Assembly (NCBI GenBank): GCA_020832655.1
Contig: JAFIEF010000022.1
Coordinates: forward strand, 1-48,814
Reading direction: 5' to 3'
DNA: 48,814 bases
Source of the DNA: Paracoccaceae bacterium
Lineage (GTDB): Bacteria; Pseudomonadota; Alphaproteobacteria; Rhodobacterales; Rhodobacteraceae
Under the pieces are notes generated by a model that had not been told where the DNA came from, did no database searches, and saw only the letters and a list, made by a program, of their open reading frames with translations. This document shows, one piece after another, positions 5,955 to 21,850 of this stretch; position 1 is the stretch's first letter, and each line of letters starts with the position of its first letter. The translations under genes were made by a program, and so were the position numbers.

Positions 5955-7139
5955 ATGAACAAGGGTAACATCCTTCAAGGGCCGATGGGGCTGGGTCTGG
6001 CGGTCGTTTCGGCCATCGTGGCTCTGGCCGCTTTCGGCTATGCCTTCATGGATCTGTCGGCTGTGGGCCACCGCAGCTTCAACACCAGCTCGCAAATTCC
6101 GTGGGGCCAGCCGATTGCGACCTATCTCTACTTCGCGCTGGCCTCGTCAGGGCTGGGCATGATTGCGGCGCTGTCGCTGGTGTTTGGCTTCAAGCAGTTC
6201 CTGCCCATCGCCAAACGCGCGATTTTCCTGTCTTTCGTGATCCTGATCTCGGGCATGGCGGTCTTGGCGATGGAGCTGGGCCATGTGTTCCGCATGCTGT
6301 GGGTGATCCCGCTGAACATGCAGATCGAATCCGCCATGTTCTGGATGGGCGTGTTCTATGTGGCTGACTTGATCTTCCTTTTGTGGAAATTCCAGAAGAT
6401 GGAAGGCCGCGAATGGGACAGCAAGACCAGCAAGCAGATCGGGATCGCATCCTTCCTGGCCGTGCTTCTGGCCAGCGGCAATCTGGCGCTGATCTTCGGC
6501 ATGATGAGCATGCGCCCGTTCTGGTTTGATGGTCTGATGCCGATCTATTTCTACCTGACGGCAGTGGCCAGCGGGCTGGCGGCGGTGGTGTTCTTCACCT
6601 ACCTTGCCTATGGCTTCAATCGTGACGCCATGCCCGAGCGCACCCGCGCCATGTTCGAAGGGCCGATGGGCAAGCTGTTCGCGGCTGTTCTGGGCGGGAC
6701 GGTTCTGTTCATCGCCGTGCGCGCCGTGACCGGGCTTTACACCAACAATCCCGAAATCAGCGTGGTCTGGCGTGACTTCCTGTTCGCCTCGCCGGTCTAT
6801 CAGGCGTCGCTCTGGCTTGGGATTGTCGCACCTTTCGTGATCATGCTGGTCAAGGGGCTGCGCAGCAATCCTTCGATGCAGGTGCTGGTCTCGATGGCAG
6901 TGTTTGCGGGCCTCTTTGCCGAGCGCTACTTCTTCGTGGTCGGCGGGCAGGTTGTGCCGCTGTTCCGGGGCACATGGGAATGGGGGCTGATCCAGTACAC
7001 GCCCTCGCTGACCGAATGGGCGCTGACGATCATGGGGTCGGCGATGCTGTTCGCACTCTATGCGGCCGGTGAGCGGTTCCTGAACCTGTCGGACATGCCC
7101 GCCGAACCCGCCCCCGAGGGCGCAACTGCTGCGGCATGA
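5955..7139 (+). CDS. arxC: NrfD/PsrC-like membrane quinone-interacting subunit ArxC
   Basis: A 394-residue polytopic membrane protein with about ten hydrophobic segments, of the NrfD/PsrC family. The first segment (about 13-33) is followed by the periplasmic stretch SAVGHRSFNTSSQIPWG typical of the family. Such subunits anchor the FeS and molybdopterin subunits and exchange electrons with the quinone pool; in arsenite oxidation quinone would be reduced. A GAGGAGGG ribosome-binding site precedes the ATG. The C-terminal tail is short and Ala/Pro-rich. The family assignment is secure and the arx role is by context. Confidence 0.82.
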   Translation: MNKGNILQGPMGLGLAVVSAIVALAAFGYAFMDLSAVGHRSFNTSSQIPWGQPIATYLYFALASSGLGMIAALSLVFGFKQFLPIAKRAIFLSFVILISGMAVLAMELGHVFRMLWVIPLNMQIESAMFWMGVFYVADLIFLLWKFQKMEGREWDSKTSKQIGIASFLAVLLASGNLALIFGMMSMRPFWFDGLMPIYFYLTAVASGLAAVVFFTYLAYGFNRDAMPERTRAMFEGPMGKLFAAVLGGTVLFIAVRAVTGLYTNNPEISVVWRDFLFASPVYQASLWLGIVAPFVIMLVKGLRSNPSMQVLVSMAVFAGLFAERYFFVVGGQVVPLFRGTWEWGLIQYTPSLTEWALTIMGSAMLFALYAAGERFLNLSDMPAEPAPEGATAAA

Positions 7140-7157
7140 ACCGTTGACACAACGCAA

Positions 7158-7184
7158 GACAGGGCGGCACCATGCCGCCCTGTC
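7158..7184. repeat. Perfect 12-bp hairpin between arxC and arxD
   Basis: Bases 7158-7169 (GACAGGGCGGCA) and 7173-7184 are perfect reverse complements separated by a 3-nt loop. No T-run follows, so it is not a classical intrinsic terminator. It sits after the three structural genes and before the chaperone gene and could stabilise or attenuate the messenger, lowering expression of arxD and later genes. Confidence 0.75.
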
Positions 7185-7210
7185 GCATGTCACGCTCATG
7201 GGAGACAGAG

Positions 7211-8062
7211 ATGACTGACACAACCGCCGCTGATGCCTATTCCCGCCGCGACCTGTGGCTGTGTCTGGCGCGCGCGTTCAGCAAACCCGAAGGCGACGCG
7301 TTCCGCGATGTGTTCACCCGGCATCTGGCCGATGACCTGAAAGCCATTGCCGAAGAAACCGGACTTGTCGCGCATGAAGATATTGCCGCGCTGCGCATCG
7401 ACGCGGCGAAACTGGGCAAGGATCTGGATCTGCTGCTGCTTTATTCCAAGCTCTTCATCGCCCCGCCTGCACCTGTGGTGCTGAATGCGGGCTATTACAT
7501 GGAGGGCGGCAAAACCGGCCATATCGAACAGGATCTGCGCGCGCATTATGCCCGCCACGGGGTCGCGAAAAGCGAAACCATGCACGATTTTCACGATGCG
7601 GTGCCGATCCAGCTTGAATTCCTGTCCTTCCTCTATGGCCGCGCGGGCGATTACGCCAAGGCCGGGCAGAACATGGAAGCCCGCGCCTATATGGCCGAGG
7701 CCGAGAGCTTCATCGCCCGCTATCCGGCGCGCTGGTGCAGCCCGTTTCTGCGCGATATGGACAAGGCCTGCACCGAGCATGGCCTGAACCGCGCCTATAC
7801 GCATCTGGCCCGTATCCTGTGGCTGGCCGTGGAACAGGCCCGCGCCGGTGCCCCGATAGAGGCGCTGCCCGCAGGCGCGGATCTGCCGCAGGGGTCATCG
7901 CGCGGGCTGGGCGATGTCACCGTGCAAGACCTGGCCGAAGTCGCCTACCGGCTGGAACAGGCGGGGCTGGCATGGGACCATGTCACGGCCAATGACGCCT
8001 GGGATGATGACGTTTTTGCCGCCCGCTGCGCGCTGGGCGATACCGACAGGGTGCAGGCATGA
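7211..8062 (+). CDS. arxD: TorD-family molybdoenzyme chaperone ArxD
   Basis: A 283-residue, largely helical TorD/DmsD-type redox enzyme maturation protein. These chaperones hold the Tat catalytic subunit in the cytoplasm until the molybdenum cofactor is inserted. ATG 7211 follows GGGAGACAGAG; an upstream ATG at 7172 lies inside the hairpin arm and would add 13 poorly conserved-looking residues. The core around residues 115-175 (HDFHDAVPIQLEFLSFLYG and the helices after it) is typical of the family. The stop overlaps the next start as ATGA, so the two genes are translationally coupled. Confidence 0.8.
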   Translation: MTDTTAADAYSRRDLWLCLARAFSKPEGDAFRDVFTRHLADDLKAIAEETGLVAHEDIAALRIDAAKLGKDLDLLLLYSKLFIAPPAPVVLNAGYYMEGGKTGHIEQDLRAHYARHGVAKSETMHDFHDAVPIQLEFLSFLYGRAGDYAKAGQNMEARAYMAEAESFIARYPARWCSPFLRDMDKACTEHGLNRAYTHLARILWLAVEQARAGAPIEALPAGADLPQGSSRGLGDVTVQDLAEVAYRLEQAGLAWDHVTANDAWDDDVFAARCALGDTDRVQA

Positions 8063-12362: not shown

Positions 12363-12446
12363 GGGCGACGAGCTGCAAGGTGCGGCAGCGGACTGTAACT
12401 CCGCCGGGGAGACCCACGCCTGGTTCGATTCCAGGGTCGCCCACCA
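12363..12446 (+). tRNA. tRNA-Tyr (GTA), also the left attachment site
   Basis: A complete 84-nt class II tRNA. Acceptor GGGCGAC pairs with GTCGCCC. D arm is GCTG/CGGC, anticodon stem GCGGA/TCCGC with loop CTGTAAC (anticodon GTA), a long variable arm with GGG/CCC, T arm CCTGG/CCAGG, and encoded CCA. Its 3' 58 nt (12389-12446) recur at 21793-21850, so the gene is the integration target of the mobile element and was kept intact by it. Confidence 0.95.
12389..12446 (+). repeat. attL: 58-bp direct repeat in tRNA-Tyr
   Basis: This is the 3' part of tRNA-Tyr from the anticodon stem to CCA. It is identical over 58 bp to 21793-21850; the bases before (G versus T) and after (C versus T) differ, which defines the repeat precisely. 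Confidence 0.93.
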
Positions 12447-12486
12447 CCTTCAAAATCAATAACTTAGCGGGTTTTGGGGTGGTGGT

Positions 12487-12528
12487 GCTTACAAGCGGAA
12501 AAACAGAAAAGTAAGCATTTTGTAAGCA
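12487..12528. repeat. Left-arm GTAAGCA sites, candidate Int/Xis arm sites
   Basis: Three copies of the motif TTGTAAGCA or its core lie just inside attL: inverted at 12487-12494 (GCTTACAA), direct at 12511-12517 and direct at 12520-12528. The last two GTAAGCA cores are 11 bp apart (12511 and 12522). The same arrangement recurs inside attR. Confidence 0.6.
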
Positions 12529-12569
12529 GGTCAGCGAGTAGGCATGAGAAGCGGTAACGGCTTCGTGAT

Positions 12570-12758
12570 CTACGCAGCGCGCCGCCTGAAACTCTGCAAC
12601 CCGGCATTGAACGCCCGCACAACCGCGTCATGATCCAGCCCCGCCAGCGCGCATACAGTCGCCGCGTCCTGTGTCCTGATCCATCGCGCCGCGTCATCAT
12701 CGCGTAGCGCCAAGGCCAGCACTGCGCGCCATAGGTGCAACTCCGGGTTCTGTGCCAT
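12570..12758 (-). CDS. Small hypothetical protein of the element
   Basis: A 62-residue soluble protein (starting MAQNPELHLWRAVLALAL) that I cannot assign. ATG 12758 follows a strong AGAGGGG ribosome-binding site at 6-8 nt; an upstream in-frame ATG at 12881 has none. It is the last gene of the leftward packaging operon, next to attL. A helical pattern with Asp-rich turns is visible. It could be a morphogenesis helper or cargo protein; there is no evidence to choose. Confidence 0.6.
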   Translation of the reverse strand: MAQNPELHLWRAVLALALRDDDAARWIRTQDAATVCALAGLDHDAVVRAFNAGLQSFRRRAA

Positions 12759-12865
12759 CGCATCCCCTCTTGTGAAAAAGGGCAGGCCCGAAAGCCTGCC
12801 CCCCATATGACCAGCCCGGAAATGAGGCAACCGCGCCGCCATATTTGCAGACTTCGCAAAACACA

Positions 12866-13564
12866 TCACGCGGGTTTGCAAAGTGTCTCGATCCAGTCAG
12901 GGGCTTTCGGTGCCGCCTCGCCAAGTTCCTGCGCCGCCGCAACCGCGCCTTGATGCAACCCCTCAAGATCGCGCGGCATGGCCTGCAACCGTTCATAGGC
13001 CCGCTGGTCATCCAGCCATTGACGATAACGCGCCGCCCCGTCTGCCAGCGCCTCGGCTTCGGCTTTCTTCGCTTCAATCGTGGCGCGGTAGTCATCCAAC
13101 GTAGCACGCGCGCGCCGCTCGGCCCGAGCCTGAGCATCTGCCGCCGCTTGTTCCGCCTGCACTGCCAACTTGCGAAGGTAGCCGCGAAGATGTGTCGCCT
13201 CTGCAATCAGATCGCCGTGGTTCGTTCCAATAGCACCCACCAGCCCCGGAAAACCCCGCGTTTCAAAGGTCACTTCACGCAAACCCCTGATCGCGGCCAT
13301 ACGCGGCTTGAAATGACGTTCCAGCGCCTCGGCCCGTTCCGCATCCGTAGGGGCGCGCAATGGCCCGTTCCCGTTCAAGATGCCGGACAACGCCCGCAAG
13401 CGCTTCTCAGCATCCGCCCGCGCCCATGCGGGTTTGAATTCAGCGCCACGCGACTGCAACGGAAAATCCGGGCAATCCAGCGCATCAGGCCAGATCGCCG
13501 CCGGGTCTTTCGTCAACGTCAAATCGGGCTTCGGGTCGATCTGCTTTTGTGCTGCCGCTTCCAT
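12866..13564 (-). CDS. Hypothetical coiled-coil protein of the element
   Basis: A 232-residue protein with no family I recognise. Residues about 130-185 are Ala/Glu/Arg-rich heptad-like sequence (AEQAAADAQARAERRARA and on) and predict a coiled coil; the N-terminal third is Pro/Asp-rich. ATG 13564 lies one base after the stop of the upstream gene, so the pair is coupled. Its place after the large terminase is where portal or head genes lie in a phage, but it has no portal features. A role in packaging or capsid interaction is possible, unproven. Confidence 0.6.
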   Translation of the reverse strand: MEAAAQKQIDPKPDLTLTKDPAAIWPDALDCPDFPLQSRGAEFKPAWARADAEKRLRALSGILNGNGPLRAPTDAERAEALERHFKPRMAAIRGLREVTFETRGFPGLVGAIGTNHGDLIAEATHLRGYLRKLAVQAEQAAADAQARAERRARATLDDYRATIEAKKAEAEALADGAARYRQWLDDQRAYERLQAMPRDLEGLHQGAVAAAQELGEAAPKAPDWIETLCKPA

Positions 13565-13565
13565 G

Positions 13566-13841
13566 TCAGTGATCCTTTTCGCTTGGCAGGCTCGCCGCCC
13601 AGTCAAAGCCCCCGGCCTGCGCATGACGTGACGGTGCAGGCTTGGATGGATGCGCCGCCGGGGTGTCATCCTCCCTCGGTAAGTTCGCTGTCCAGTCAAA
13701 TGCAGCAGGCTTGACAGGCGGCTTGGCATTGCCCTGAGCCTGCGCAATGCCCTCTTGCACGGCACGCCGGACAAGCGCGTTAAGCGCCGCCTTGTGGTCC
13801 GGCCTGCCCCGCGCGGCTGTCGTTACAAAGGTAAGTCCCAT
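13566..13841 (-). CDS. Small protein with duplicated FDW-LP motif
   Basis: A 91-residue protein beginning 19 nt inside the terL 3' end behind a good AGGAG site. Two related segments, AFDWTANLPREDD (about 47-59) and GFDWAASLPSEKD (about 78-90), suggest an internal duplication or a repeated short binding motif separated by a Pro/Ala-rich linker. The N-terminus looks like a small helical domain. Repeated short linear motifs often contact a partner protein, here perhaps a terminase or helper protein; that is inference. Confidence 0.6.
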   Translation of the reverse strand: MGLTFVTTAARGRPDHKAALNALVRRAVQEGIAQAQGNAKPPVKPAAFDWTANLPREDDTPAAHPSKPAPSRHAQAGGFDWAASLPSEKDH

Positions 13842-15277
13842 GCGATATGCTCCTTTTGTGGGATTGGTTCTGTGCGGCCCGTAGCGCCGCGATGACGTAG
13901 CAAGATGCCCGGCGATGACGTGCGCTTAGTGAGTGTCGCCACAACGCCCGCAACCGCGTTTGCACGGTCATCATGGCCCCCCGGCGCATGGTCGATCTGG
14001 TCACGCCCGCTGCGGCTGGTGCGCCGTTCCAGCCCGATAAGCTGGCGCTGCACCACCTCACATGGTGGCAGTTCAACACGGCCCGAATTCAGCGCCGCAA
14101 GCGTTTCAAGATAAAGCGCGCTGCGGTCCAGTTCCGACACGTCATAGGCAATGCCATGCTTGCGGAATTCATCCCCCGGCCATCGGCCCGCGTATCTGTC
14201 GCCCATCACGCGCTTGATGCCGTAGCGGCTCAATATGTCCACATACTCGGCCACGATCCCGGCGGGTGATCCCTTGCGCCCCTGCACCAGATCAATAACA
14301 GCGGCGTCACCTTCCCGGTGGCCTATGCAAAGCGTGAATTCATCCGCGCCGCCGCCGCTTGGGTCAACAAAGGCCAGGTATTGAACGCCCGCAACACGCG
14401 GCAATTCGCGCGGCTTCGGACGGGTGCAATCGGCTATCAATTCAGGGTCAACAAAGCTGGATATGTCGCTGCGAAACTCTGCCAGATACTCGGCCCGCGC
14501 CGCCTCTGGATCGTCGCGCATGGCGTCATCAATGACACGTTGCGGCAAGGTCGGGTTCATCATCCTTGACGGTGCACGCGCCACCAGAACGCGGCTTTCC
14601 GCGTCATCTGCGAAACTGCGCCTGAAGGTATCCCAAAGCACGCCCCGTTTTGCGTAGGGCGATGACAAGGCAATCAACTTGCCGCCCAAGGTCGCCAAGG
14701 CTGGCCGGATTGCCGCGATGATTTCCTTGTCAGGGCTTGCGCCGTCAGCATGCCAAAAGCTGATTTCGTCGCAGATGCACGCGGCCAGCGTGTAGCCCCT
14801 GACTGACCTATGGCTGGCCGTGGTGATCTCGATCACGCAACGGTTATTCAGTTCGATCTGTTCCGAATTCTCGCGCACCACCATGCGCCGCAACATCGGG
14901 TTTTCATTCACAAGCCCGGACGTGTAGCGCATCACGGCCCGCGCCTGCTTTCGATCTGCCGCGATTGTCATCACGGTTGCAATCTCGCCGGGTGCAAGTC
15001 TGTCGCGGTAGTCAAAGAAACACGCCAGATACACGGCCAGAAACGCCGCTGCATGGCTCTTGCCGCCCCTGCGCCCTATGGCTAGCCAAAGCTCTGCAAA
15101 GGCGTCATGTGGGGCTTCTGTGCGCGCTGTAAGCGCCTTGAACGTGTCCAGTTCGGTGGCGTCCAGTTCCAGCCCGTAAAAGCCTGAAAGCAAGGCACGC
15201 CATGCGCTGAAACTATCGCCCCCAAAGATCGGCCCGAATAGCTGCGCCTCGGTCATGGCTTGGCGTATGTCGATCAT
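13823..15277 (-). CDS. terL: Terminase large subunit
   Basis: A 484-residue packaging motor. The ATPase domain has a Walker A variant GRRGGKS (residues 68-74) and Walker B with CDE (Asp170, Glu171). The C-terminal nuclease has Asp305 (FVDPSGGG), Asp360 (GDRYAG) and DDRANA near residue 445, the three acidic positions of the RNase-H-like fold. ATG 15277 overlaps the preceding stop (ATGA). Full length and all catalytic motifs present, so it is probably functional. It powers DNA translocation into a procapsid and cuts the DNA, yet no portal or capsid gene is near. The nearest relatives are expected in tailed phages. Confidence 0.88.
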   Translation of the reverse strand: MIDIRQAMTEAQLFGPIFGGDSFSAWRALLSGFYGLELDATELDTFKALTARTEAPHDAFAELWLAIGRRGGKSHAAAFLAVYLACFFDYRDRLAPGEIATVMTIAADRKQARAVMRYTSGLVNENPMLRRMVVRENSEQIELNNRCVIEITTASHRSVRGYTLAACICDEISFWHADGASPDKEIIAAIRPALATLGGKLIALSSPYAKRGVLWDTFRRSFADDAESRVLVARAPSRMMNPTLPQRVIDDAMRDDPEAARAEYLAEFRSDISSFVDPELIADCTRPKPRELPRVAGVQYLAFVDPSGGGADEFTLCIGHREGDAAVIDLVQGRKGSPAGIVAEYVDILSRYGIKRVMGDRYAGRWPGDEFRKHGIAYDVSELDRSALYLETLAALNSGRVELPPCEVVQRQLIGLERRTSRSGRDQIDHAPGGHDDRANAVAGVVATLTKRTSSPGILLRHRGATGRTEPIPQKEHIAWDLPL

Positions 15278-15375
15278 GCCAGCCCCCATGCAAGGAAGGC
15301 CAGCCCGTAGCACTCAAGGCCAAGGGCCAAGGCAAGCGCCCGGTTGCGGGTCAGGACATAGGCCAGCGCAATCAT
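15274..15375 (-). CDS. 33-residue hydrophobic peptide, overlapped in terminase operon
   Basis: A short frame encoding a 33-residue peptide (starting MIALAYVLTRNRALALALG) with one predicted membrane helix. Its start overlaps the stop of the upstream 46-residue gene and its stop overlaps the terL start, both as ATGA. The exact overlaps on both sides are the main evidence that it is translated. Function unknown. Confidence 0.5.
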   Translation of the reverse strand: MIALAYVLTRNRALALALGLECYGLAFLAWGLA

Positions 15376-15512
15376 CCCGCCCCCCTGATCGCTGTCGCAA
15401 GATCGGCCAGCAAGGCAAGCGCGGCTCCGTGTGTGAGCGGCACTTCTGCAAACGCTTCCCCGTCACGCCAGATATGCAGAACAGGGCCGGGTCGGATCGT
15501 GATCAGCATCAT
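15372..15512 (-). CDS. 46-residue hypothetical protein in terminase operon
   Basis: A 46-residue protein (starting MMLITIRPGPVLHIWRDGE) with a beta-rich N-terminal half and a helical C-terminal half. Both ends overlap neighbours by ATGA, making a continuous translational chain from the 120-residue gene to terL. I do not recognise the family. Confidence 0.55.
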   Translation of the reverse strand: MMLITIRPGPVLHIWRDGEAFAEVPLTHGAALALLADLATAIRGAG

Positions 15513-15871
15513 GACGCGGCCCGCCCGGCGATGTAGCTGGCAAGGTCTGTCACGTCTTTCTGTCTGCGCTCCAAGCCCAGCTTAACAAGGATGCCTTGAA
15601 GGGCATTGCAGGCTTGTGTCCACTTTCCAGCGTCAAAGCTGGCATGGTCGCCATCGGCAAGGGCTTGCTCTTGAATGTGAAGCCAATGTTCCAGCCATAG
15701 CGCGCGCTCCACAAGACTGCGCTGCGAATAGGACAACTGGTCAGCGCCGCCAAGGTCATCGGTCATCGCCTGCCAGCGTGCGCGCATATCAACTGCGACC
15801 CTGCTACGCCCGTCCAGGCGGTCAAGGTATCCGGCGGTAAACTGGTCAGGAATGGCGGTTAGTTTGGGCAT
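15509..15871 (-). CDS. Candidate terminase small subunit
   Basis: A 120-residue helical protein, first gene of the leftward packaging operon. Its position two tiny genes upstream of terL, its size and its helix-rich composition suit a small terminase, which selects the DNA to be packaged, but I see no certain HTH and the sequence does not match a family I know. The stop overlaps the next gene as ATGA. It is preceded by the iteron-containing gap and by two GTAAGCA sites at 15887-15905, so its expression may be tied to the element's own DNA-binding proteins. Confidence 0.55.
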   Translation of the reverse strand: MPKLTAIPDQFTAGYLDRLDGRSRVAVDMRARWQAMTDDLGGADQLSYSQRSLVERALWLEHWLHIQEQALADGDHASFDAGKWTQACNALQGILVKLGLERRQKDVTDLASYIAGRAAS

Positions 15872-15886
15872 ATATCCGGCGCATCT

Positions 15887-15905
15887 GCTTACATTATGCT
15901 TACAT
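15887..15905. promoter_or_regulatory. Paired GTAAGCA sites upstream of the packaging operon
   Basis: Two copies of ATGTAAGC (read on the minus strand) at 15887-15894 and 15898-15905, 11 bp apart, 16 bp upstream of the first packaging gene's ATG. The motif and spacing match the pairs inside both attachment arms, suggesting one protein binds all three places. Confidence 0.5.
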
Positions 15906-16079
15906 GATAGCCCATGCCCTAGGTAATGTCATTTTCTAACAGTTACTTATGCGACCTTAACGGCGGATTTATGATCCGATGATGACCAGAAAGTGCGAAT
16001 TTTGCAAAGCGGTCGAGGGTAGCGGCCAGCGTGAAGGCGATATGTCGCGCCGAATATAACGCCCATGCTGCCATGAGGG

Positions 16080-16338
16080 TGTAACCGACTGTAACCGACT
16101 GTAACCAAGCCTCTGGTTACATTTTAGCCTTGATATCATTCGCTTTTTTCACGGTGTAACCGTGTAACCGGGATTTCGGGCTACTCTATATTTTCAAAAA
16201 CACACTCATACTTCTCTGACTGTTTTTCTCCCAATTATCGAAAAATGTCGGTTACACGGTTACACATGGTTTTTTCCCTTTAAAAACAACGCTAAAATGT
16301 AACCGCGCCTCTGGTTACACTTGGTTACACTGGTTACA
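16080..16338. repeat. Symmetric TGTAACC iteron array, putative replication origin
   Basis: Twelve copies of TGTAACC or its complement: direct at 16080, 16090, 16100, 16155, 16163 and 16298; inverted at 16115, 16250, 16258, 16313, 16323 and 16332. Each direct copy pairs with an inverted one about a dyad at 16209.5 (one pair is off by half a base). The first three are spaced by exactly 10 bp. The centre (about 16180-16245) is AT-rich. It lies in the only long gene-free stretch of the element (15872-16348), right downstream of the helicase gene. Iterons flanking an AT-rich centre are the known design of PICI/SaPI origins. Confidence 0.75.
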
Positions 16339-16348
16339 CTTTCCCGCA

Positions 16349-17857
16349 TCACTTCAACATCACAGCTTTGACCACAACGCCGTTGACGCGGTGCGCGGCA
16401 TTACCCCTGCCATCTGCGGCCATGTGCTGCATGATCTCAGGCTTGCGTCTGCGCAGTGTGCCAACTTCGCTGAATGTGAAGTGCTCTGTCAGATAATCTT
16501 CAAGCGCCTTATTGGCGTGTTGCAGATACTCGATGCCGCCGGAGTAGGTAATCAGATCGGGCTTCATGCGCCGCAACCAATCCACTGCCTGCGTGGCGAT
16601 ATCCGGGTAGCTGTCGGATAAGCGTTGAAAATGCTGGTCAAGTCCGTGCTCGGCAATGAATGCGTTTAGAACATCATCGGCTCGTTTTTCAGCGTCCGTG
16701 CGTCCAAGTGCGATATACTCAGCAATCAAACTGTTCAGGCTTCTGGCGATGTAGGTTCTCACAACGCGATAATAATAGCCCTGATCGGCCTGATATCGCG
16801 TGCGCTGGTTTAGCGTCCCTGTGCCTGTAATCATCGACATGCGATTGGCGAATTGATCTTCAACGCCGTTTTCAGTCACTAGTGAACCAACGCTTTCAGC
16901 AGAAAGAAACAGCTTCGTAAAAATCTCGACACGCGCTGTAAGCTGATATTTCGGCGCAAGATAGATTTCAGACTGCAACTGTTTCAGTTCAGACTTTACC
17001 GCTTTGAATTCATCAACTGCCAGAATCATGGCGCGCTTGAAGTCTGCTGGGCTTCGTCCGGCGGGTTTACCTTCAAAGACGCCCTCAATCTCTCTGACGC
17101 TCATCTCGACCACAAGCCCATGATCCTTTAGCGCGCCCATGAGAAAGCCTTTTCCCCAGTCTGACTGCGCCAATAACCAGAGGTATGCTTTCTTGCGGTC
17201 AAGTGCGAAACGCGCCGCGATGATATAGCCTAACACTTGGTCGATCTGCGGAAAGTGCGCGCGGTAGTCATCAATGACTGCCTGATCTCTCGGCCCTGTC
17301 ACATCAAGCGGCTGGTGTGTCAGCACAATGCGGACAACATCCTCTTTCAATTCCAGCTTGGCGCGCTTGGCGAACATATCAACTGACCATTCCACCTGAT
17401 CGCGCTGGTTTTCGTATTTCAGATAATCCAGTATCGGGTCGATAACTGAGGCGTGAACAGCTTTTGCAATCTTGTCCTGATCGCGCTGTGATATGTCTTT
17501 CTGCTCGTCGCCTTGGTCTTGTGCTGCGACACGGGCGGCCTTGACCTGTTCAATGATGCATTCAACATCAACGGGCTTGCCAAAGCGGCGACATAGAAAC
17601 TTCCATGCGTCTTGCCCTCCGAATTGCACGAGACATTCATCATGATTGAGAAGGAATATTTTTGACTTCACGCCAGACCAGAATGCGCCCTCAATCATGT
17701 TTTGAATGATCGCGCCATCTATATCGGGATCGTCTTGCAGATCGGGCAAGCTGTCCCTGATCCGCTTCGCAATGGTCTTGACGATACGTTCTGCATCTCG
17801 ACTGATTGGCGGTCTCGTCTCCGGCGTGTATTCTTGCAGATAATCCTCAACATTCAT
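16349..17857 (-). CDS. SF3-like replicative helicase/ATPase of the element
   Basis: A 502-residue protein with a P-loop-like AQSDWGKG segment (about residue 233) and a hydrophobic strand ending in VDEF (about residue 278) as Walker B, spaced as in superfamily 3 / virulence-associated-E-type ATPases of phages and satellites. The N-terminal 200 residues are unassigned. Its start overlaps the primase stop (ATGA) and it ends 11 bp from the iteron array, so it is the likely origin-binding initiator and helicase. Base composition is more AT-rich than host genes. Confidence is good for an ATPase with a replication role and moderate for the exact family. Confidence 0.7.
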   Translation of the reverse strand: MNVEDYLQEYTPETRPPISRDAERIVKTIAKRIRDSLPDLQDDPDIDGAIIQNMIEGAFWSGVKSKIFLLNHDECLVQFGGQDAWKFLCRRFGKPVDVECIIEQVKAARVAAQDQGDEQKDISQRDQDKIAKAVHASVIDPILDYLKYENQRDQVEWSVDMFAKRAKLELKEDVVRIVLTHQPLDVTGPRDQAVIDDYRAHFPQIDQVLGYIIAARFALDRKKAYLWLLAQSDWGKGFLMGALKDHGLVVEMSVREIEGVFEGKPAGRSPADFKRAMILAVDEFKAVKSELKQLQSEIYLAPKYQLTARVEIFTKLFLSAESVGSLVTENGVEDQFANRMSMITGTGTLNQRTRYQADQGYYYRVVRTYIARSLNSLIAEYIALGRTDAEKRADDVLNAFIAEHGLDQHFQRLSDSYPDIATQAVDWLRRMKPDLITYSGGIEYLQHANKALEDYLTEHFTFSEVGTLRRRKPEIMQHMAADGRGNAAHRVNGVVVKAVMLK

Positions 17858-18738
17858 GCCGCAACCTTCCGTTTCTGCAAAATATCATTCCAATCGCGGC
17901 CCTGCGGCGCGGGCAAAATGCTGCACTTCCAGCCCAGACCATGCGCGCGTTGTGCGAGTTCGTGACCAGCAGCGCGGCCTGCGTCATCGCCATCGGTCGC
18001 AATCGTGATCCGGCCCGGTGACGATGGAAGGCGCAAGGCGCGCATCCCGCTGGTGGATAATGCCGCCCAGATCGTCGCAGGCGCGCGTAGCAGGCCGCTG
18101 GCAAGGCTCAAGCCCGTCTCTATGCCCTCGCATATGACGAGCGGCCCTTGCGCCTGTGTGAGCCTAACAGCGCCGCCGCGCGTGCATCCCAGCATCATCT
18201 TGTCCGGGTCGACCTTGGCTTTTCCTCGCCCGTCAGCGTCAAGGAAAGTGCGATGTATCGCAAAGCCCTCGGCCCCTTCCACCAGCGCGACCATTGCAGG
18301 CCATCGCCGCGCGGTCGGCCCATGCCAGCAGTCACCATGAAAGCGAAGGCTGTCAGGCATGGCGCAAGTGATCCCGCGCCCGCGTAGGTAGGTTTCGGCA
18401 AGCGTTCCGGTGATCGGTGAAGCCTCATCCCAAAGCGCGCGCGCCTGTCGTGACCTCTTGTCGATTTCGGCCCGCCGTTCGGTTTCCCTTTGGGCGATGA
18501 TTGCAGGGTCAGGCGGTGCATAGCTGCCGGGTGCAACACCAGCAGCGCGGATGATATCCGTAAAGCTGCATCCGCTCTTTTTGCAGTGCAGCAGCAAGCG
18601 CCCGCCGTTGCCATCTGTAAGGGTCAGCGCGGTCTGATCGCGCCGCCGTTCGGGCTGGCAACAAGGGCAAGCTGCGCTGCCATATGCGCCATGCCATCGA
18701 CCAGCCAGGTCGAGTGTGATCTTCTGTGCATCTGTCAT
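17854..18738 (-). CDS. Toprim-domain primase
   Basis: A 294-residue phage-type primase. The N-terminal zinc finger (Cys24, Cys27, Cys52, Cys57 region) is followed by a helical linker with a WDEA segment and a C-terminal Toprim domain with the glutamate in VICEGIETG and the acidic pair in IATDGDDAG, closing with RDWND. ATG 18738 is selected for its GAGGTGG ribosome-binding site; an in-frame upstream start (18846) overlaps the previous gene. It makes RNA primers for replication of the element. Coupled to the helicase by an ATGA overlap. Confidence 0.8.
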   Translation of the reverse strand: MTDAQKITLDLAGRWHGAYGSAACPCCQPERRRDQTALTLTDGNGGRLLLHCKKSGCSFTDIIRAAGVAPGSYAPPDPAIIAQRETERRAEIDKRSRQARALWDEASPITGTLAETYLRGRGITCAMPDSLRFHGDCWHGPTARRWPAMVALVEGAEGFAIHRTFLDADGRGKAKVDPDKMMLGCTRGGAVRLTQAQGPLVICEGIETGLSLASGLLRAPATIWAALSTSGMRALRLPSSPGRITIATDGDDAGRAAGHELAQRAHGLGWKCSILPAPQGRDWNDILQKRKVAA

Positions 18739-18748
18739 GATGACCACC

Positions 18749-19207
18749 TCAAAACGGGACTTTTTCGTGTTCGTCAGAACATTCTGCGGCGTTCGGCGTT
18801 TGGTAATCAAAACACCCAGCCCGCTCCGCGATAATGAGGAAGTCATGAAGCATATCGCCTGCCGCCTTGGCTTGCGAATATGTCGGAAATGCTTTGCTCA
18901 ATACGTCAACTTGTCCGTCCCATACTGCGCATTCCCACTTCTGCGATGCCTGATCGCGATGCACGCAGACATTCAGCGCATGATTGCCACGCGCGGATTC
19001 TGCCGCATTGGCTTTTTCCAGCTTGTCGAGAAGAATGCGGTGGTGCGTATCGCTCAGGTCGCCATATTCTCGGACAAAACAAAGTGTGTCGAATAGCTGC
19101 GCCCCGTCCATTTGGGCGATTGCAACGTCGATCTTGTCGAGTGCGGATTGCAGGTCATCGACCAGCGCGTCCAAGTTCTGCGCGGTTTCATTTTTATGAT
19201 AAGTCAT
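18749..19207 (-). CDS. Hypothetical protein of the element
   Basis: A 152-residue acidic protein, no family recognised. The N-terminal half is helical (MTYHKNETAQNLDALVDDL and on) with several Asp/Leu heptads; the C-terminal half includes a CVHRD and WECAVWD stretch that may be a small beta sheet. It ends 10 bp before the primase start, in the replication operon. Low GC relative to the host. It may be an accessory replication or single-strand-binding factor, but nothing proves this. Confidence 0.6.
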   Translation of the reverse strand: MTYHKNETAQNLDALVDDLQSALDKIDVAIAQMDGAQLFDTLCFVREYGDLSDTHHRILLDKLEKANAAESARGNHALNVCVHRDQASQKWECAVWDGQVDVLSKAFPTYSQAKAAGDMLHDFLIIAERAGCFDYQTPNAAECSDEHEKVPF

Positions 19208-19313
19208 GCTCTAGCCTTTCGGTTGCCCGATAGGCGCGGCGGTGGTATAATCTCAGGTGAAGCTGCCCGCTTCTGAATACCCCAAGCCCGCGCCGCGTCC
19301 CTCGGTGCGGGTT

Positions 19314-19547
19314 TTACTTTTGGGGAAGGTTTACGATCTCAGCGCCGCCTGCGCGCCTGATCCCCTCGCGCTCCAGTTCGTCAGCTTGGCGTTCCAGCCA
19401 ATGCCCCATGTCACGGATAGCCGCTGCAATCGCTGGCAAAGCCTCGGGACAGGCTTCTAGCCGCTGCAAGAGGAAATGAAGCTGGACGCCTTTATACTCG
19501 CCTGCGCCTTCCATAGTGGCGCGCACAACTTGTTTCTGCCAATCCAT
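19314..19547 (-). CDS. Small helical hypothetical protein of the element
   Basis: A 77-residue helical protein (starting MDWQKQVVRATMEG). ATG 19547 overlaps the alpA-like stop by one base (TGATG); a GTG one codon earlier is an alternative. It lies in the early region next to the AlpA-like regulator and probably shares its transcript. No family recognised. The 106-bp gap that follows (19208-19313) contains an imperfect GC-rich inverted repeat but no gene. Confidence 0.6.
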   Translation of the reverse strand: MDWQKQVVRATMEGAGEYKGVQLHFLLQRLEACPEALPAIAAAIRDMGHWLERQADELEREGIRRAGGAEIVNLPQK

Positions 19548-19756
19548 CACGCCACCTCGACCGAATTGGATTCAACAAAGGCGACCACGTCAGCAGCGCG
19601 GTAACGGACGCCGCGTCCTACCTTGATGTAGGGAATTTTCGCGCCCAGCCATCTGTCGCGTTCTAGCCATTTCGGACTGACGCCTAGATAGTCGGCAGTC
19701 TGGCGTTGATCCCACAAGACAGGGACGGTGACGGTTGTTTGAGTAATGCTTTGCAT
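19547..19756 (-). CDS. AlpA/excisionase-like DNA-binding protein
   Basis: A 69-residue MerR/AlpA-type winged helix-turn-helix protein: WDQRQTADYLGVSPKWLERDR forms the HTH and YIKVGRGVRYRAADV the wing. In P4-like satellites and PICIs, AlpA acts as excisionase and/or activator of early genes. Its ribosome-binding site (GAGGG) is inside an 8-bp perfect inverted repeat at 19763-19785. It is the best candidate binder of the GTAAGCA pairs in the element, though the integrase is the other choice. Confidence 0.8.
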   Translation of the reverse strand: MQSITQTTVTVPVLWDQRQTADYLGVSPKWLERDRWLGAKIPYIKVGRGVRYRAADVVAFVESNSVEVA

Positions 19757-19762
19757 GTTTTG

Positions 19763-19785
19763 CCCTCATGTAGCAGTCATGAGGG
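19763..19785. promoter_or_regulatory. Inverted repeat covering the alpA ribosome-binding site
   Basis: CCCTCATG at 19763-19770 and CATGAGGG at 19778-19785 are perfect complements with a 7-nt spacer, immediately upstream of the alpA-like ATG (19756). On the mRNA (minus strand) the GAGGG that would bind the ribosome is in the 3' arm, so a hairpin would hide it; as DNA it could be a repressor operator. This could be the element's lysogeny switch. Confidence 0.6.
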
Positions 19786-19821
19786 GAATTAAGCATTTGT
19801 TTCTAAATGATAAAACTAAAG

Positions 19822-19857
19822 AGGCTAGGCTTTTCGGAAATACCTAGCCTTTTCCTT
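19822..19857. terminator. Likely bidirectional terminator between int and alpA units
   Basis: AGGCTAGG (19822-19829) and CCTAGCCT (19843-19850) form an 8-bp perfect stem with T-rich sequence after it on the plus strand and a partial T-run on the minus strand. It includes the stop codon of the 177-residue gene, so it probably ends the integrase transcript before the alpA-like operon. Confidence 0.55.
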
Positions 19858-20377
19858 TTCTGCGCGGTGGCGGGATATCGCAATGCGGGCTTTCCACAAG
19901 TTCACTAAGCCAGGTTCGCAGTGTCCGCTCCGTGACGGTCAATTTTTGGGTGAGCCTACGAAGCGTCTGTGCGAAGTTCAGACCCTCACTTTCACATTGA
20001 ATGACTATCTCAAGAAATTTGGGCTTCTGCTTATCCGCAGTTTCTGGCCGCTTAGATGCAGCACCTTTGCGTCTCGCCTTTTCTTTCTTCAAGTTTAGAA
20101 CATCGTCTAGCGTCAAATCTAAAGCTTTGAGAATTGAAAGATCAAACTTGCTGTAGTGTTCGATTTCTCGTTGTCGCCGCCGCCGTCTATGTTCTTGCTC
20201 GTCATACGTCCGCATCAACTCATCTACATCGTATCCATTCTTGCGGAAAATATCACGCATTCCCGCTGCAATAGCTTCGCCGATCTGCTTTGACTTACCC
20301 GGCTCTTTTAGTTTCCAGTGCTCTTCCCAAGCCTCTAATTTTTTCATCTCTAGTTCGTCTTTGTCCAGTTTCTTCAT
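19844..20377 (-). CDS. Basic hypothetical protein coupled to integrase
   Basis: A 177-residue highly charged protein, Lys/Glu-rich at the N-terminus, with an Arg-rich stretch (about 68-74) and a C-terminal region that resembles an HTH (RRLTQKLTVTERTLRTWL, about 143-160). This suggests DNA binding. The start overlaps the integrase stop (ATGA), so it is made together with the recombinase. It could be a recombination directionality factor or a replication/partition protein; I do not recognise a family. Codon use is more AT-rich than in host genes. Confidence 0.6.
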   Translation of the reverse strand: MKKLDKDELEMKKLEAWEEHWKLKEPGKSKQIGEAIAAGMRDIFRKNGYDVDELMRTYDEQEHRRRRRQREIEHYSKFDLSILKALDLTLDDVLNLKKEKARRKGAASKRPETADKQKPKFLEIVIQCESEGLNFAQTLRRLTQKLTVTERTLRTWLSELVESPHCDIPPPRRKGKG

Positions 20378-21654
20378 CCCCGCGCCTCCAGCTTCACCAC
20401 GTTATCTGTCGGCACGATCCGGGCAGGTGACAGAATGAAGTCTGCAACGGCCTGCGCGGCCTGTCTGATATCGTCCGGCTCGATCTGGACATACCCGGCG
20501 GTCACATCCGCCTTCGCCACGACATGGTTTATCAGCGCCTTCAGAACGAAGGCATTGCAGCACCTGCTGGCCGCTGTGGCGTAGCTGCGCCGCAAGTCAT
20601 GGCTTGTGACGCGAAACCCCATCGCCTTTTCAAGACGCGCATATGCGCTGCGGATATCCTCTGCCACATCGCCCTTGGCATTGGCGAAAACATACCGTCT
20701 CTTGCCACTGACCTTGTGCCGCTGGCGTAGCAGTTCGACCACTTGTCGAGATAGATATAGGGTGAAGGGCTGGCGGTTTTTCGGCTCAGGGAAAAACACT
20801 GTCGCGGCGTCCAGATCAACCTGCGACCACTTCAAAGGCTCATATCCTGATTTCGCATCGCCCATCACTTCGGCATGGCGCGCGCCTGTAAGCAGCATGA
20901 ACAGGATAGCGTCACGGTGTTCATTCTCATGCCGCAAGCCCACCAGACCAGCCTGCACGGCCTGCACGAAGTCTGCGAGACGGTCAGCAGGAACATGACC
21001 TTTTGCGGCTTCCACATTGGCCCATGCACTCACTCGGTTCAAACGATCAACCGGGTTATACGAAAGTGCTGGATTGTCCTTCGGGCTGTCAGCAATGGCA
21101 TAGTTCAAACATGCGCGAAGATACCGAAAAGCCAGATCGGCCTGCGCGGGTGAAACCTCGGCAATCTTCTTGTGACGCGCCTTCACCATATCTTCGGTGA
21201 CATCCTTAATGGGCAGTTCCAGCCAATCCTTAAAACGCATCATCTGCAAACGGATATCTCGGACAGTGCGCGGCTTGCGCACCTTGCCTCTGGACGCCCC
21301 CTTTTTCTGCACTGGCGCTGCAATGTAGTTTTCAAACGCTGCGCGCAAGGTCAGGGCTTGAACGGCTTGGCGCTCTTGTTCCTGCACAGGGTCGATCCCG
21401 TCCACGATCTGCGCGACCAGCTTGGCCGCTTCCTTGCGCGCCTTGTCCAGCGTCATGTCGCCCGCGCGACCGATGGTCATGCGCCGCTCTTTCTTACCTA
21501 TGCGGCGTTGCAGGATGTATGACTTGGCCCCGCCACTTGAGACGCGAAGCCCGAAACCGCGCGTTTCCGTATCCCATACGATGATGGTTTTACCTGCCAC
21601 CGGTGCGATATCCGCCACGCTGGTCTTGGTCAGTTTTTTCCGATTGTCGCCCAT
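20374..21654 (-). CDS. int: Tyrosine-type integrase
   Basis: A 426-residue site-specific recombinase of the P4/tRNA-integrating kind. The N-terminal arm-binding domain (about 8-100) is followed by a SAM-like core-binding domain (about 105-215) and a catalytic domain with Arg259 (LLTGARHAEV), His352 and Arg355 (SHDLRRS), His377 and the nucleophile Tyr388 (TAGYVQ). All catalytic residues are present. ATG 21654 is chosen since the 14 upstream residues match nothing. It lies beside attR, as usual for elements in tRNA genes, and targets the tRNA-Tyr 3' end. Confidence 0.92.
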   Translation of the reverse strand: MGDNRKKLTKTSVADIAPVAGKTIIVWDTETRGFGLRVSSGGAKSYILQRRIGKKERRMTIGRAGDMTLDKARKEAAKLVAQIVDGIDPVQEQERQAVQALTLRAAFENYIAAPVQKKGASRGKVRKPRTVRDIRLQMMRFKDWLELPIKDVTEDMVKARHKKIAEVSPAQADLAFRYLRACLNYAIADSPKDNPALSYNPVDRLNRVSAWANVEAAKGHVPADRLADFVQAVQAGLVGLRHENEHRDAILFMLLTGARHAEVMGDAKSGYEPLKWSQVDLDAATVFFPEPKNRQPFTLYLSRQVVELLRQRHKVSGKRRYVFANAKGDVAEDIRSAYARLEKAMGFRVTSHDLRRSYATAASRCCNAFVLKALINHVVAKADVTAGYVQIEPDDIRQAAQAVADFILSPARIVPTDNVVKLEARG

Positions 21655-21667
21655 GATATCCGCCCGT

Positions 21668-21687
21668 TTGTAAGCAATTTGTAAGCA
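21668..21687. repeat. Right-arm GTAAGCA pair, candidate Int/Xis arm sites
   Basis: Two copies of TTGTAAGCA (21668-21676, 21679-21687), 11 bp apart, lie between the int promoter and its ATG. A third, inverted copy is at 21761-21768, 25 bp from attR. Bound Int or AlpA here could also control int transcription. Confidence 0.6.
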
Positions 21688-21720
21688 AATAAGCAAGAAA
21701 AGCCTAGAAGCTACGGCGGA

Positions 21721-21749
21721 TATATAGGCTAAATAGCGTTGTTTTGCAA
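21721..21749 (-). promoter_or_regulatory. Promoter of int
   Basis: On the minus strand TTGCAA (21749-21744) is separated by 17 bp from TATATA (21726-21721), a good match to a housekeeping -35/-10 promoter. It would start transcription upstream of the paired GTAAGCA sites, so the int leader carries the arm sites. Confidence 0.55.
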
Positions 21750-21792
21750 GGGTTTTGAGTGCTTACAAGGGGGTGTGAGAAGCCCATCCCAT

Positions 21793-21850
21793 CGGACTGT
21801 AACTCCGCCGGGGAGACCCACGCCTGGTTCGATTCCAGGGTCGCCCACCA
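21793..21850 (+). repeat. attR: 58-bp copy of tRNA-Tyr 3' half
   Basis: Perfect copy of 12389-12446 running from the anticodon stem to CCA. It lacks the acceptor 5' strand and D arm, so it is not a functional tRNA. It marks the right end of the element; chromosomal sequence resumes at 21851, and nothing recognisable lies between 21851 and 22015. Confidence 0.93.

Follow-up and report, generated by a model that had tools for sequence, protein, structure and literature searches.

A tRNA-Tyr-borne element of a Paracoccaceae bacterium, with its own terminase, read as a helper-dependent phage satellite

Genes and ends of the element

We analyzed a window of 48,814 nucleotides from a Paracoccaceae bacterium (contig JAFIEF010000022.1) that contains a 9.4-kb element bounded by perfect repeats of the 3' end of a tRNA-Tyr gene. 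The integration target, an intact tRNA-Tyr(gta) gene, was located with ARAGORN at 12363..12446 (plus strand), and its 3' 58 bp (12389-12446, plus strand) constitute the left end repeat. The copy at the far end lies at 21793-21850 (plus strand), and exact matching gave a length of precisely 58 bp for both, as the first-pass annotation had described. In one genome of the same genus (L120), the site is empty, with the 58 bp of tRNA-Tyr stopping at 2377 and the right flank restarting at 2408. The repeats and the empty site correspond to site-specific integration between att repeats, a general mark of satellites. Among plasmid records, the repeat sequence alone was matched, in a single record, and the rest of the element was not found.

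Every gene of the element is located on the minus strand and reads leftward. A tyrosine integrase (20374..21696; PF00589, 4.7e-10; PF13356, 1.1e-17) is followed by a 177-aa protein (19844..20377) with weak family matches at most and none in PADLOC, by an AlpA-type HTH_17 regulator or excisionase (19547..19756; PF12728, 1e-7, above its cut-off), by a 78-aa protein (19314..19550) in common with L028 and L055, and by a 152-aa protein (18749..19207) that matched no family in Pfam, PHROGs, NCBIfam or PADLOC. The replication module begins with a primase containing DUF7146 and Toprim domains (17854..18846, Pfam). The integrase, AlpA-like regulator and primase named at first reading, and their leftward direction, were thus upheld. 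The next protein (16349..17857) is of the helicase/primase replication type: almost its whole length aligns to the COOH-terminal half of phrog_35045, annotated as DNA primase (5.5e-93), and relatives with 34-38% identity occur in nine phage records. A sequence search of PDB gave nothing for it. It had no Pfam match either, so that its initial description as an SF3-like helicase holds for a replication protein, whereas no family model backed the SF3 label. The motif TGTAACC occurs 14 times in the window, compared with 1.18 expected, a count reached by none of 100 shuffles, and 12 of these copies, six on each strand, fall within 259 bp at 16080-16338 (no strand assigned). This iteron array, which had also been noticed initially, is a likely candidate for the replication origin of the element.

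The large terminase gene (terL, 13823..15313, with a start perhaps at 15289) remains open over 496 codons. The protein matched the PHROG terminase large subunit (6.4e-24), with Pfam terminase models matching only below cut-off, and the columns of its motor and nuclease motifs were invariant or nearly so in an alignment of 13 sequences; the earlier call of an intact large terminase was borne out accordingly. Annotated phages yielded 12 records, the best showing 29% identity over 61% of the protein, and comparison of a TerL profile with PDB returned three weak matches to the nuclease domain. A 120-aa protein encoded at 15509..15871 appears, by its fold only, to be the small terminase (TerS). In addition to its position, the evidence comprises a structure model (pLDDT of 88.1) for which 12 of the top 20 rows from a viral library were named terminase small subunit and for which HK97 TerS appeared at ranks 3, 14, and 44 in PDB; the Foldseek E-values were all >0.001, with the best at 0.018. 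A small conserved gene between the two (orf46, 15372..15512) was detected by tblastn in L026, L027, L028, and L042. No packaging site was found in the element.

Two genes occupy the region after TerL, which we refer to as the slot. The first encodes a 91-aa protein (13566..13841) that overlaps the end of TerL and has no tblastn relative, and the second a 232-aa protein, acc232 (12866..13564), with relatives in L040 and L077. At the thresholds applied, neither had a match in Pfam, PHROGs, NCBIfam, or PADLOC. The model for acc232 consists mostly of long helices at moderate confidence (pLDDT of 71.9, three sequences) and gave no meaningful structural match. The protein is weakly conserved, with 34% identity to that of L040 and a dN/dS of 0.39 at which synonymous sites are near saturation. 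Direct searches of IMG/VR with acc232 and with fam37 yielded no relative, and a wider TerL search gave L077 (acc232, 38%) and L064/L068 (fam37, 23-24%). In both L040 and L077, a small gene likewise sits between TerL and acc232, and no similarity of this gene to the 91-aa protein was detected.

Adjoining the tRNA gene is a 62-codon gene, fin61 (12570..12758), which is kept in relatives, with tblastn matches in nine loci, a count that includes the window and L027, where the copy is interrupted; phage records gave just one marginal match, in a Wolbachia phage. Upstream of fin61 lies a terminator-like hairpin with a T run (12764..12803, minus strand; fold z of only -1.84), of which 40 bp are identical in L029, 39 bp are shared at 97% with L027, and 26 bp are identical in L026. 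As far as families in Pfam, PHROGs, and NCBIfam tell, no element protein belongs to a capsid, portal, protease, tail or lysis family, consistent with the initial description of this copy, and the element is in this respect without a complete virion and lysis gene set, as is general for satellites.

Relatives and the slot after TerL

TerL searches turned up 17 elements of this kind, spread over 14 genomes of the bacterial family. Both ends are present in eight of the 17, with a unit of 8.7-11.0 kb, and the 17 TerL proteins form one clade with a support of 100 SH-aLRT in a 64-row tree and of 100/99 in a 20-row tree. Ratios of dN/dS were 0.15-0.22 for TerL, TerS, integrase, and primase, and 0.30 for the regulator, values indicating that the core genes are under purifying selection. 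Some copies are damaged, given that L039 lacks both slot and fin61 and that the TerL frames of L042 and L058 are shortened.

Slot contents could be read in 15 elements, and in all of them the variable genes are positioned after TerL. Four carry an HK97-type coat (PF05065 in L029 and L017, with its relatives in L054 and L058), three carry a different coat together with a short scaffold (phrog_247 and phrog_206 in L027, with relatives in L055 and L056), and eight carry no recognized family. The scaffold of L027 was assigned from a single PHROG match (3.7e-6) and its position ahead of the coat, and it had no match among phage records. L056 also possesses a tape-measure-like gene, so that not every member of the family is free of tail genes. 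No portal was recognized in any of the 17 elements; the local BLAST check for portals was insensitive, recovering them in only five of 47 viral contigs. When 1325 six-frame frames taken from the 17 elements were compared with 23 proteins of heads and tails, the four HK97-type coats and the L056 tape-measure-like gene gave matches. Five further matches, of 16-38 residues with E values of 0.002-0.007, were read as chance.

The four elements nearest by TerL bear four different slots. The same genome harbors a second element (L006), at tRNA-Gly, whose TerL is 88% identical to that of the window over 1357 bp and whose fin61 is 79% identical, whereas the slot and origin region differ and the integrase shows only 23% identity. 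The explanation that best fits these sequence comparisons is that the terminase pair represents a conserved lineage, with the integrase, the replication genes and origin, and the slot being exchanged. TGTAACC was missing from the 15 other regions checked, and we rejected the idea that this iteron is common to the whole satellite family. Other repeats were found, with CGTCACA in L026, L039, and L055 and CGGGACA in L017 and L027; among these loci, the count in L026 alone exceeds that of its shuffles. The repeats may track the type of replication gene, a hint at most.

Portals are present in some contigs outside the family that have a related TerL (L083, L100, and L074; 42-49% identity to that of the window), and they blur the borders of the family. 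Portal, protease, and coat were recognized in L083 and L100 by match to gene transfer agent (GTA) proteins, and the portal of L074 is phrog_145. The label 'phage/portal' in the 64-row tree covers 19 rows, three of which have a portal match (L074, L075, and L083) and 16 of which were so labeled from the size and location of their genes. None of these labels enters into the finding for the family clade. As a contrast, a phage region of the same genus (L139) has consecutive genes for TerL, portal, scaffold, and coat.

Readings of the element

The element is probably a phage satellite, integrated and dependent on a helper, that encodes its own motor and has a slot that may modify the particle. Discrete insertion at a tRNA gene, the empty site, the single TerL clade of small elements, and purifying selection support the satellite reading. 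The capsid-less island proposed in the first-pass annotation holds for this copy as far as families tell, but not as a description of the family, in which seven of the 15 readable relatives carry a coat after TerL. We infer a helper, its induction, and a function for the slot as follows. On infection by a helper tailed phage, or on induction of one, the element would excise and use the iteron origin to replicate; heads made mainly of helper proteins would be filled with its DNA by the terminase that it encodes. Gene products of the slot would then alter the particle, a step of which we are less sure. Given that sister slots encode a coat, or a coat and a short scaffold, acc232 and its 91-aa neighbor would most likely act as a scaffold-like or coat-interacting factor, making the helper head accept the element's own motor or genome size.

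We also consider, more tentatively, that the elements may constitute an old satellite lineage in which an own terminase pair is joined to an interchangeable cassette for one virion part or a few: an entire coat protein in some elements, a coat plus a shortened scaffold in others (in one case accompanied by a tape-measure-like protein), and in yet others unrelated factors, of which acc232 is an example. If so, each element would build chimeric particles and would be retuned to a different helper by swapping its cassette. A satellite that substitutes its own coat for that of the helper, and still borrows the portal, would pirate in a way intermediate between PICIs and capsid-forming PICIs (cf-PICIs). 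Where the tail is concerned, more distant relatives sharing this TerL would act likewise (tape measure, chaperone, hub, and fiber).

It seems rather unlikely that the satellite makes no head part at all and that its slot holds anti-phage or helper-interference genes, with packaging as concatemers in unchanged helper heads as in PICMI. Slots are indeed variable, like defense cargo, those of the window match no head family, and concatemer packaging without capsid remodeling is reported in PMC10803314. Seven of 15 slots, however, contain a coat or a coat and scaffold, PADLOC matched none of the three familyless slot proteins scanned (acc232, the 91-aa protein, and a 199-aa protein of L006), and the small gene between TerL and acc232 recurs in L040 and L077.

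The reading of the element as the remnant of a prophage deprived of structural and lysis genes was weighed with the TerL trees and the selection data, and we retain it as a minor and highly unlikely rival of the satellite reading. The portal-bearing contigs with a related TerL are candidate prophages, some relatives are damaged, and the head genes after TerL in seven of 15 relatives, together with the tape-measure-like gene of L056, approach the arrangement that had been named at the outset as evidence of a deleted prophage, that of complete prophages with head genes after terL. The coat-bearing relatives are nevertheless not complete prophages, in view of the eight two-ended elements of small size and of the failure to recognize a portal or protease. 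The 17 TerL proteins form one clade in which no portal was recognized, many independent losses would have to halt at the same small size and a similar layout, the core genes have open frames and show purifying selection, and slots swap across the tree instead of decaying in place.

Mobilization by the GTA of the host, which had been suggested as a helper, has a next to negligible probability, given that nothing ties the GTA cluster of the genome to the element, that the window element itself has no coat gene, and that GTA heads contain only a few kilobases and are thus below the size of the element. The only PF04860 portal and the only PF05065 coat match of the genome do share one cluster on contig C24, whose gene order we take to be that of a Rhodobacter-type GTA, and the L029-type coat is 36% identical to the C24 coat; it also matches ordinary phages at 31.7-43.1% among the matches listed (25 of 519 records). 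A limit on GTA capacity set by an oblate capsid is described in PMC7296036.

Comparison with known satellites

A P4-type set comprises P4 alpha, Sid, delta, and psu, and no such Pfam match was obtained among the element proteins. VEIMEs and tycheposons are linked to tRNA sites. They are integrated elements of marine bacteria packaged in phage particles, and the likeness, as judged from descriptions of VEIMEs, consists in the integrated state and, for the window element, in a predicted packaging. Classical PICIs (SaPI and Gram-negative types) rely on the large terminase of the helper. The element resembles them in its integrase, AlpA-type regulator, primase, and att repeats, and the window copy combines the first three with no recognized structural or lysis gene; the average PICI size is given as ~9.5 kb. 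Described PICIs encode at most TerS or a TerS redirector, with the large terminase being that of the helper (PMC10690885), whereas the window element has its own open TerL with intact motifs.

In the same text, cf-PICIs encode coat, protease, portal, connectors, both terminases, and an HNH nuclease (PMC10690885). The element is likewise a small integrated satellite with its own terminases, TerL by family and TerS by fold only, and some relatives have a coat gene. It differs in that none of coat, protease, portal, or connectors was recognized in the window element and in that the family adds to its terminases no more than a coat, sometimes accompanied by a scaffold and in one element also by a tape-measure-like gene. 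Neither a portal nor a protease nor a connector was recognized in the family clade, and the seven coat-bearing relatives have the coat alone or with a scaffold. Streptomyces MulchRoom and MiniFlayer share with the family both terminases and a coat, but their gene sets further include portal, scaffold, and adapter and are without key replication genes (PMC10690885), whereas the window family has replication genes and no recognized portal. PICMI is fis-associated, with integrase, AlpA, and a DUF3987/DUF5906 primase (PMC10803314); the site here is tRNA-Tyr and the primase is DUF7146/Toprim.

PLEs, of ~18 kb, encode a capsid scaffold, TcaP (PMC10945586), and give rise to chimeric tails in which the tape measure, tail chaperone, and hub are those of the satellite (PMC12987554). 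As compared by description, analogies lie in the slot idea and in the tail genes that L056 and distant relatives possess, but PLEs reside in V. cholerae with the virulent helper ICP1, and here the coat genes themselves are carried. We read the lineage as lying between PICIs and cf-PICIs and as akin to PLE satellites with chimeric particles. With satellites grouped by the share of the virion they make, it would sit between kinds that steal everything and kinds that build a whole head, and it suggests satellites that take most of the virus particle from a helper and contribute a component themselves. Given that closely related terminases have as neighbors coat, scaffold, or unknown genes unrelated to one another, the lineage allows a direct test of which single component makes a particle the satellite's own.

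Among the papers listed from open-licence literature, there was no report of phage satellites in Rhodobacterales, and the word 'satellite' occurs 0 times in a Paracoccus virome paper (PMC6536676). Our reading would place such elements in a group in which GTAs are the main known vehicle. Two named cultured organisms are among the carriers, Phaeovulum veldkampii DSM 11550 (L017) and Roseibaca ekhonensis CECT 7235 (L016/L028), and in their assemblies the contig stops inside the element, short of the integrase.

The tRNA-Tyr element and its gene set

The window element is very likely a phage satellite that encodes a packaging motor of its own, a reading that retains the first-pass interpretation as a phage-inducible island and draws on its discrete insertion and on the existence of related small elements. 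The tRNA-Tyr repeats proposed as its boundaries were found as exact 58-bp copies at 12389–12446 and 21793–21850, the former being the 3' end of the tRNA-Tyr gene at 12363–12446. The G+C content of the element is 0.566, compared with 0.636 and 0.628 for the flanks. With the left flank and tRNA as query, matches were obtained in 17 of 26 genomes. In contig L120, from another genome of the genus, the 58-bp tRNA-Tyr sequence stops at 2377 and the right flank of the window (from 22018) restarts at 2408 with 72.5% identity; given that the two nearly abut, the site is empty in L120. The corresponding sequences lie ~0.8 kb apart in contig L111. Sequence comparison indicates that the window element is a discrete insertion. 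The same-genus contigs L115 (6–128) and L117 (16–129) are broken inside sequence 88–90% identical to the tRNA-side end of the element, so that further copies are probably present in draft genomes.

The leftward gene set described initially (integrase, regulator, primase, helicase, iterons, and large terminase) was recovered, except that the SF3 type of the helicase was confirmed by no model and that the family matched by the regulator was HTH_17, not one specific to AlpA. The tyrosine integrase and HTH_17 regulator were identified by family match, as was the primase (DUF7146/Toprim); the replication protein of 502 aa matched phrog_35045 (5.5e-93), and the large terminase (TerL) matched the PHROG terminase large subunit (6.4e-24). 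The motif TGTAACC occurs 14 times in the window (1.18 expected), with 12 of the 14 copies at 16080–16338, six per strand. Family scans of the element's proteins detected no virion or lysis family, in agreement with the reported absence of head, tail, and lysis genes. A terminator-like hairpin at 12764–12803 precedes fin61, a 62-codon gene adjoining the tRNA end; its 40 bp are identical in the related element L029, whose TerL gene has a DNA similarity of only about 66%.

The 120-aa protein had no match in family scans. It was aligned with 18 relatives, and its structure model had a pLDDT of 88.1. Foldseek searches with this model gave no E-value below 0.001; the best 20 viral-library rows comprised 12 named terminase small subunit, six uncharacterised, one putative zinc ribbon protein, and one nameless, and in the PDB the HK97 small terminase appeared at ranks 3, 14, and 44 amid unrelated helical proteins. 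The predicted fold makes a good but not conclusive case for a small terminase (TerS).

Related elements in Rhodobacteraceae

Matches to TerL were found in 5 of 147 near relatives (E ≤ 1e-20) and, at E ≤ 1e-60, in 5 of 394 family, 10 of 390 order, and 3 of 385 class genomes, with these draws overlapping and each including the window's genome. The family total was 17 elements in 14 genomes: the window, L006, L026, L027, L028, L029, L017, L015, L039, L040, L041, L042, L054, L055, L056, L057, and L058, with L015, L017, and L028 (which coincide with G473, G431, and G025, respectively) each counted once. Their TerL proteins formed one clade, both in a quick tree of 64 rows (SH-aLRT 100) and in a careful tree of 20 rows (100/99). 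End repeats on both sides were identified in 8 of the 17 (window, L006 [17 bp, exact], L027, L029 [19 bp], L040, L055 [16 bp], L056, and L057 [16 bp]), and these units measure 8.7–11.0 kb. The 16-bp repeats are short, yet are positioned at the tRNA 3' end and past the integrase. The eight are inserted at genes for tRNA-Tyr, Gly, Pro, Cys, and Arg, and a tRNA-Asn or Leu gene adjoins some of the other elements. Gene order in L040 is turned round relative to the tRNA, and a Type II-like DNA methyltransferase (6113–7333), apparent cargo, lies beside its integrase. The window's genome harbours another member of this TerL clade, L006 (6618–15401 of contig C76, tRNA-Gly), which differs from the window element in integrase, origin region, and slot.

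Contents and exchange of the slot

The slot between TerL and the element end was readable in 15 of the 17 elements, given that L041 ends inside TerL and the next gene of L039 is host-like. An HK97-type coat occupied four slots (L029 and L017 by PF05065, L054 and L058 by 58–62% identity to L029), and a phrog_247 coat with scaffold occupied three (recognised in L027 by PHROGs and in L055 and L056 through their identity to L027). The remaining 8 of 15 contained genes without recognised family, of four kinds: fam37 (L026, L028, L057, and L042), the 232-aa acc232 (window and L040), and one kind each in L006 and L015, the 183-aa protein of L015 giving weak matches below any cut-off. Neither portal nor protease emerged among the slot proteins covered by profile scans, which extended to only a minority of the relatives' other genes. 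BLAST of all frames of at least 40 aa from the 17 elements, with 23 head and tail proteins as the comparison set, likewise detected neither; this search is insensitive, its control having recognised portals in 5 of 47 viral contigs.

Scaffolds of the three coat-plus-scaffold elements measure 160, 166, and 174 aa, versus 273 aa in L139 and 263 positions in the profile. They align poorly to the L139 scaffold, and that of L027 had no match in phage records; judged from one PHROG match and gene place, they are likely shortened. L139 (5856–10439), a same-genus phage region in which TerL, portal, scaffold, and phrog_247 coat genes are consecutive, illustrates what sort of phage might donate coat and scaffold. 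After the scaffold and coat, L056 encodes a 493-aa protein (13472–14953) with no Pfam or PADLOC match. It has one stretch in common with an Ensifer tape measure, and its C-terminal 100 residues gave matches to tail proteins from 48 phage records, including the Rhodovulum phage vB_RhkS_P1 tape measure (41%, covering 21% of the protein). With this tape-measure-like gene, the slot can therefore also carry a tail part. A role of the slot in forming chimeric particles would be plausible.

On well-supported branches of the careful tree, three changes were forced for the coat-plus-scaffold slot and two for acc232. All slot types together required eight changes (minimum, 5; shuffled mean, 9.5; 17 of 200 shuffles as low), and slot types are therefore only weakly clustered. 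The closest four elements (window, L006, L026, and L015) have four different slots. Between the window and L006, DNA identity is 88% over 1357 bp for TerL and 79% for fin61, with no match in between; between the window and L027, it is 84–90% for integrase, primase, regulator, and TerS but only 68% for TerL, with helicase and slot unshared. Such patchy sharing implies that the element was assembled from exchangeable blocks. These patterns indicate that the slot is exchanged between elements. Simple counting gave the following dN/dS values: TerL, 0.21 and 0.15; TerS, 0.16; integrase, 0.18; primase, 0.22; regulator, 0.30; fin61, 0.20; coats, 0.15–0.17; and acc232, 0.39, its synonymous sites being near saturation. 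The ratios point to clear constraint on core genes and weaker constraint on the slot, fam37 lying outside this set.

Helper candidates and wider relatives

In the window's genome, PF04860 (portal) and PF05065 (coat) each matched once, both times within a single cluster resembling a gene transfer agent (GTA), and no relative of the L027 coat was found in the genome. A resident helper of another type may exist, the search having covered PF04860, PF05065, and the L027 coat only. The L027-type coat was present in 2 of 147 near relatives (the genomes of L027 and L139) and, among the top rows of 722 records, was nearest to phages of Stenotrophomonas, Pseudoxanthomonas, Xanthomonas, Achromobacter, and Pseudomonas (38–43%).

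PMC12987554 shows that PLE satellites form chimeric tails by inserting a tape measure, chaperone, and hub of their own, and one figure legend mentions putative tape measure genes in cf-PICIs; to this extent, single virion parts in satellites have published precedent. Among the papers listed in literature searches, none was found to describe a portal-less satellite lineage that combines its own terminase with a slot for coat or for coat and scaffold.

Related TerL proteins were present in 47 viral contigs. Portal follows TerL in some of them (recognised in L083 and L100 through a match with the GTA portal and in L074 and L075 through phrog_145); L080 has a baseplate hub and tape measure, L065 and L063 a tape measure, and L093 a protease. 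In rhizobial relatives, TerL is accompanied by neck and tape measure genes (Ensifer L019) or by protease-like, tail chaperone, tape measure, and neck genes (L023), with L018, L020, and L021 included by shared genes. Scans of 10 proteins from each of L019 and L023 detected neither coat nor portal, and these relatives are possibly satellites that replace tail parts. In L077 (5914–10023), an acc232 relative follows TerL and a tail fibre gene (phrog_5616, 6.1e-56) is located near the contig end; if complete, L077 would be a satellite with its own host-recognition part.
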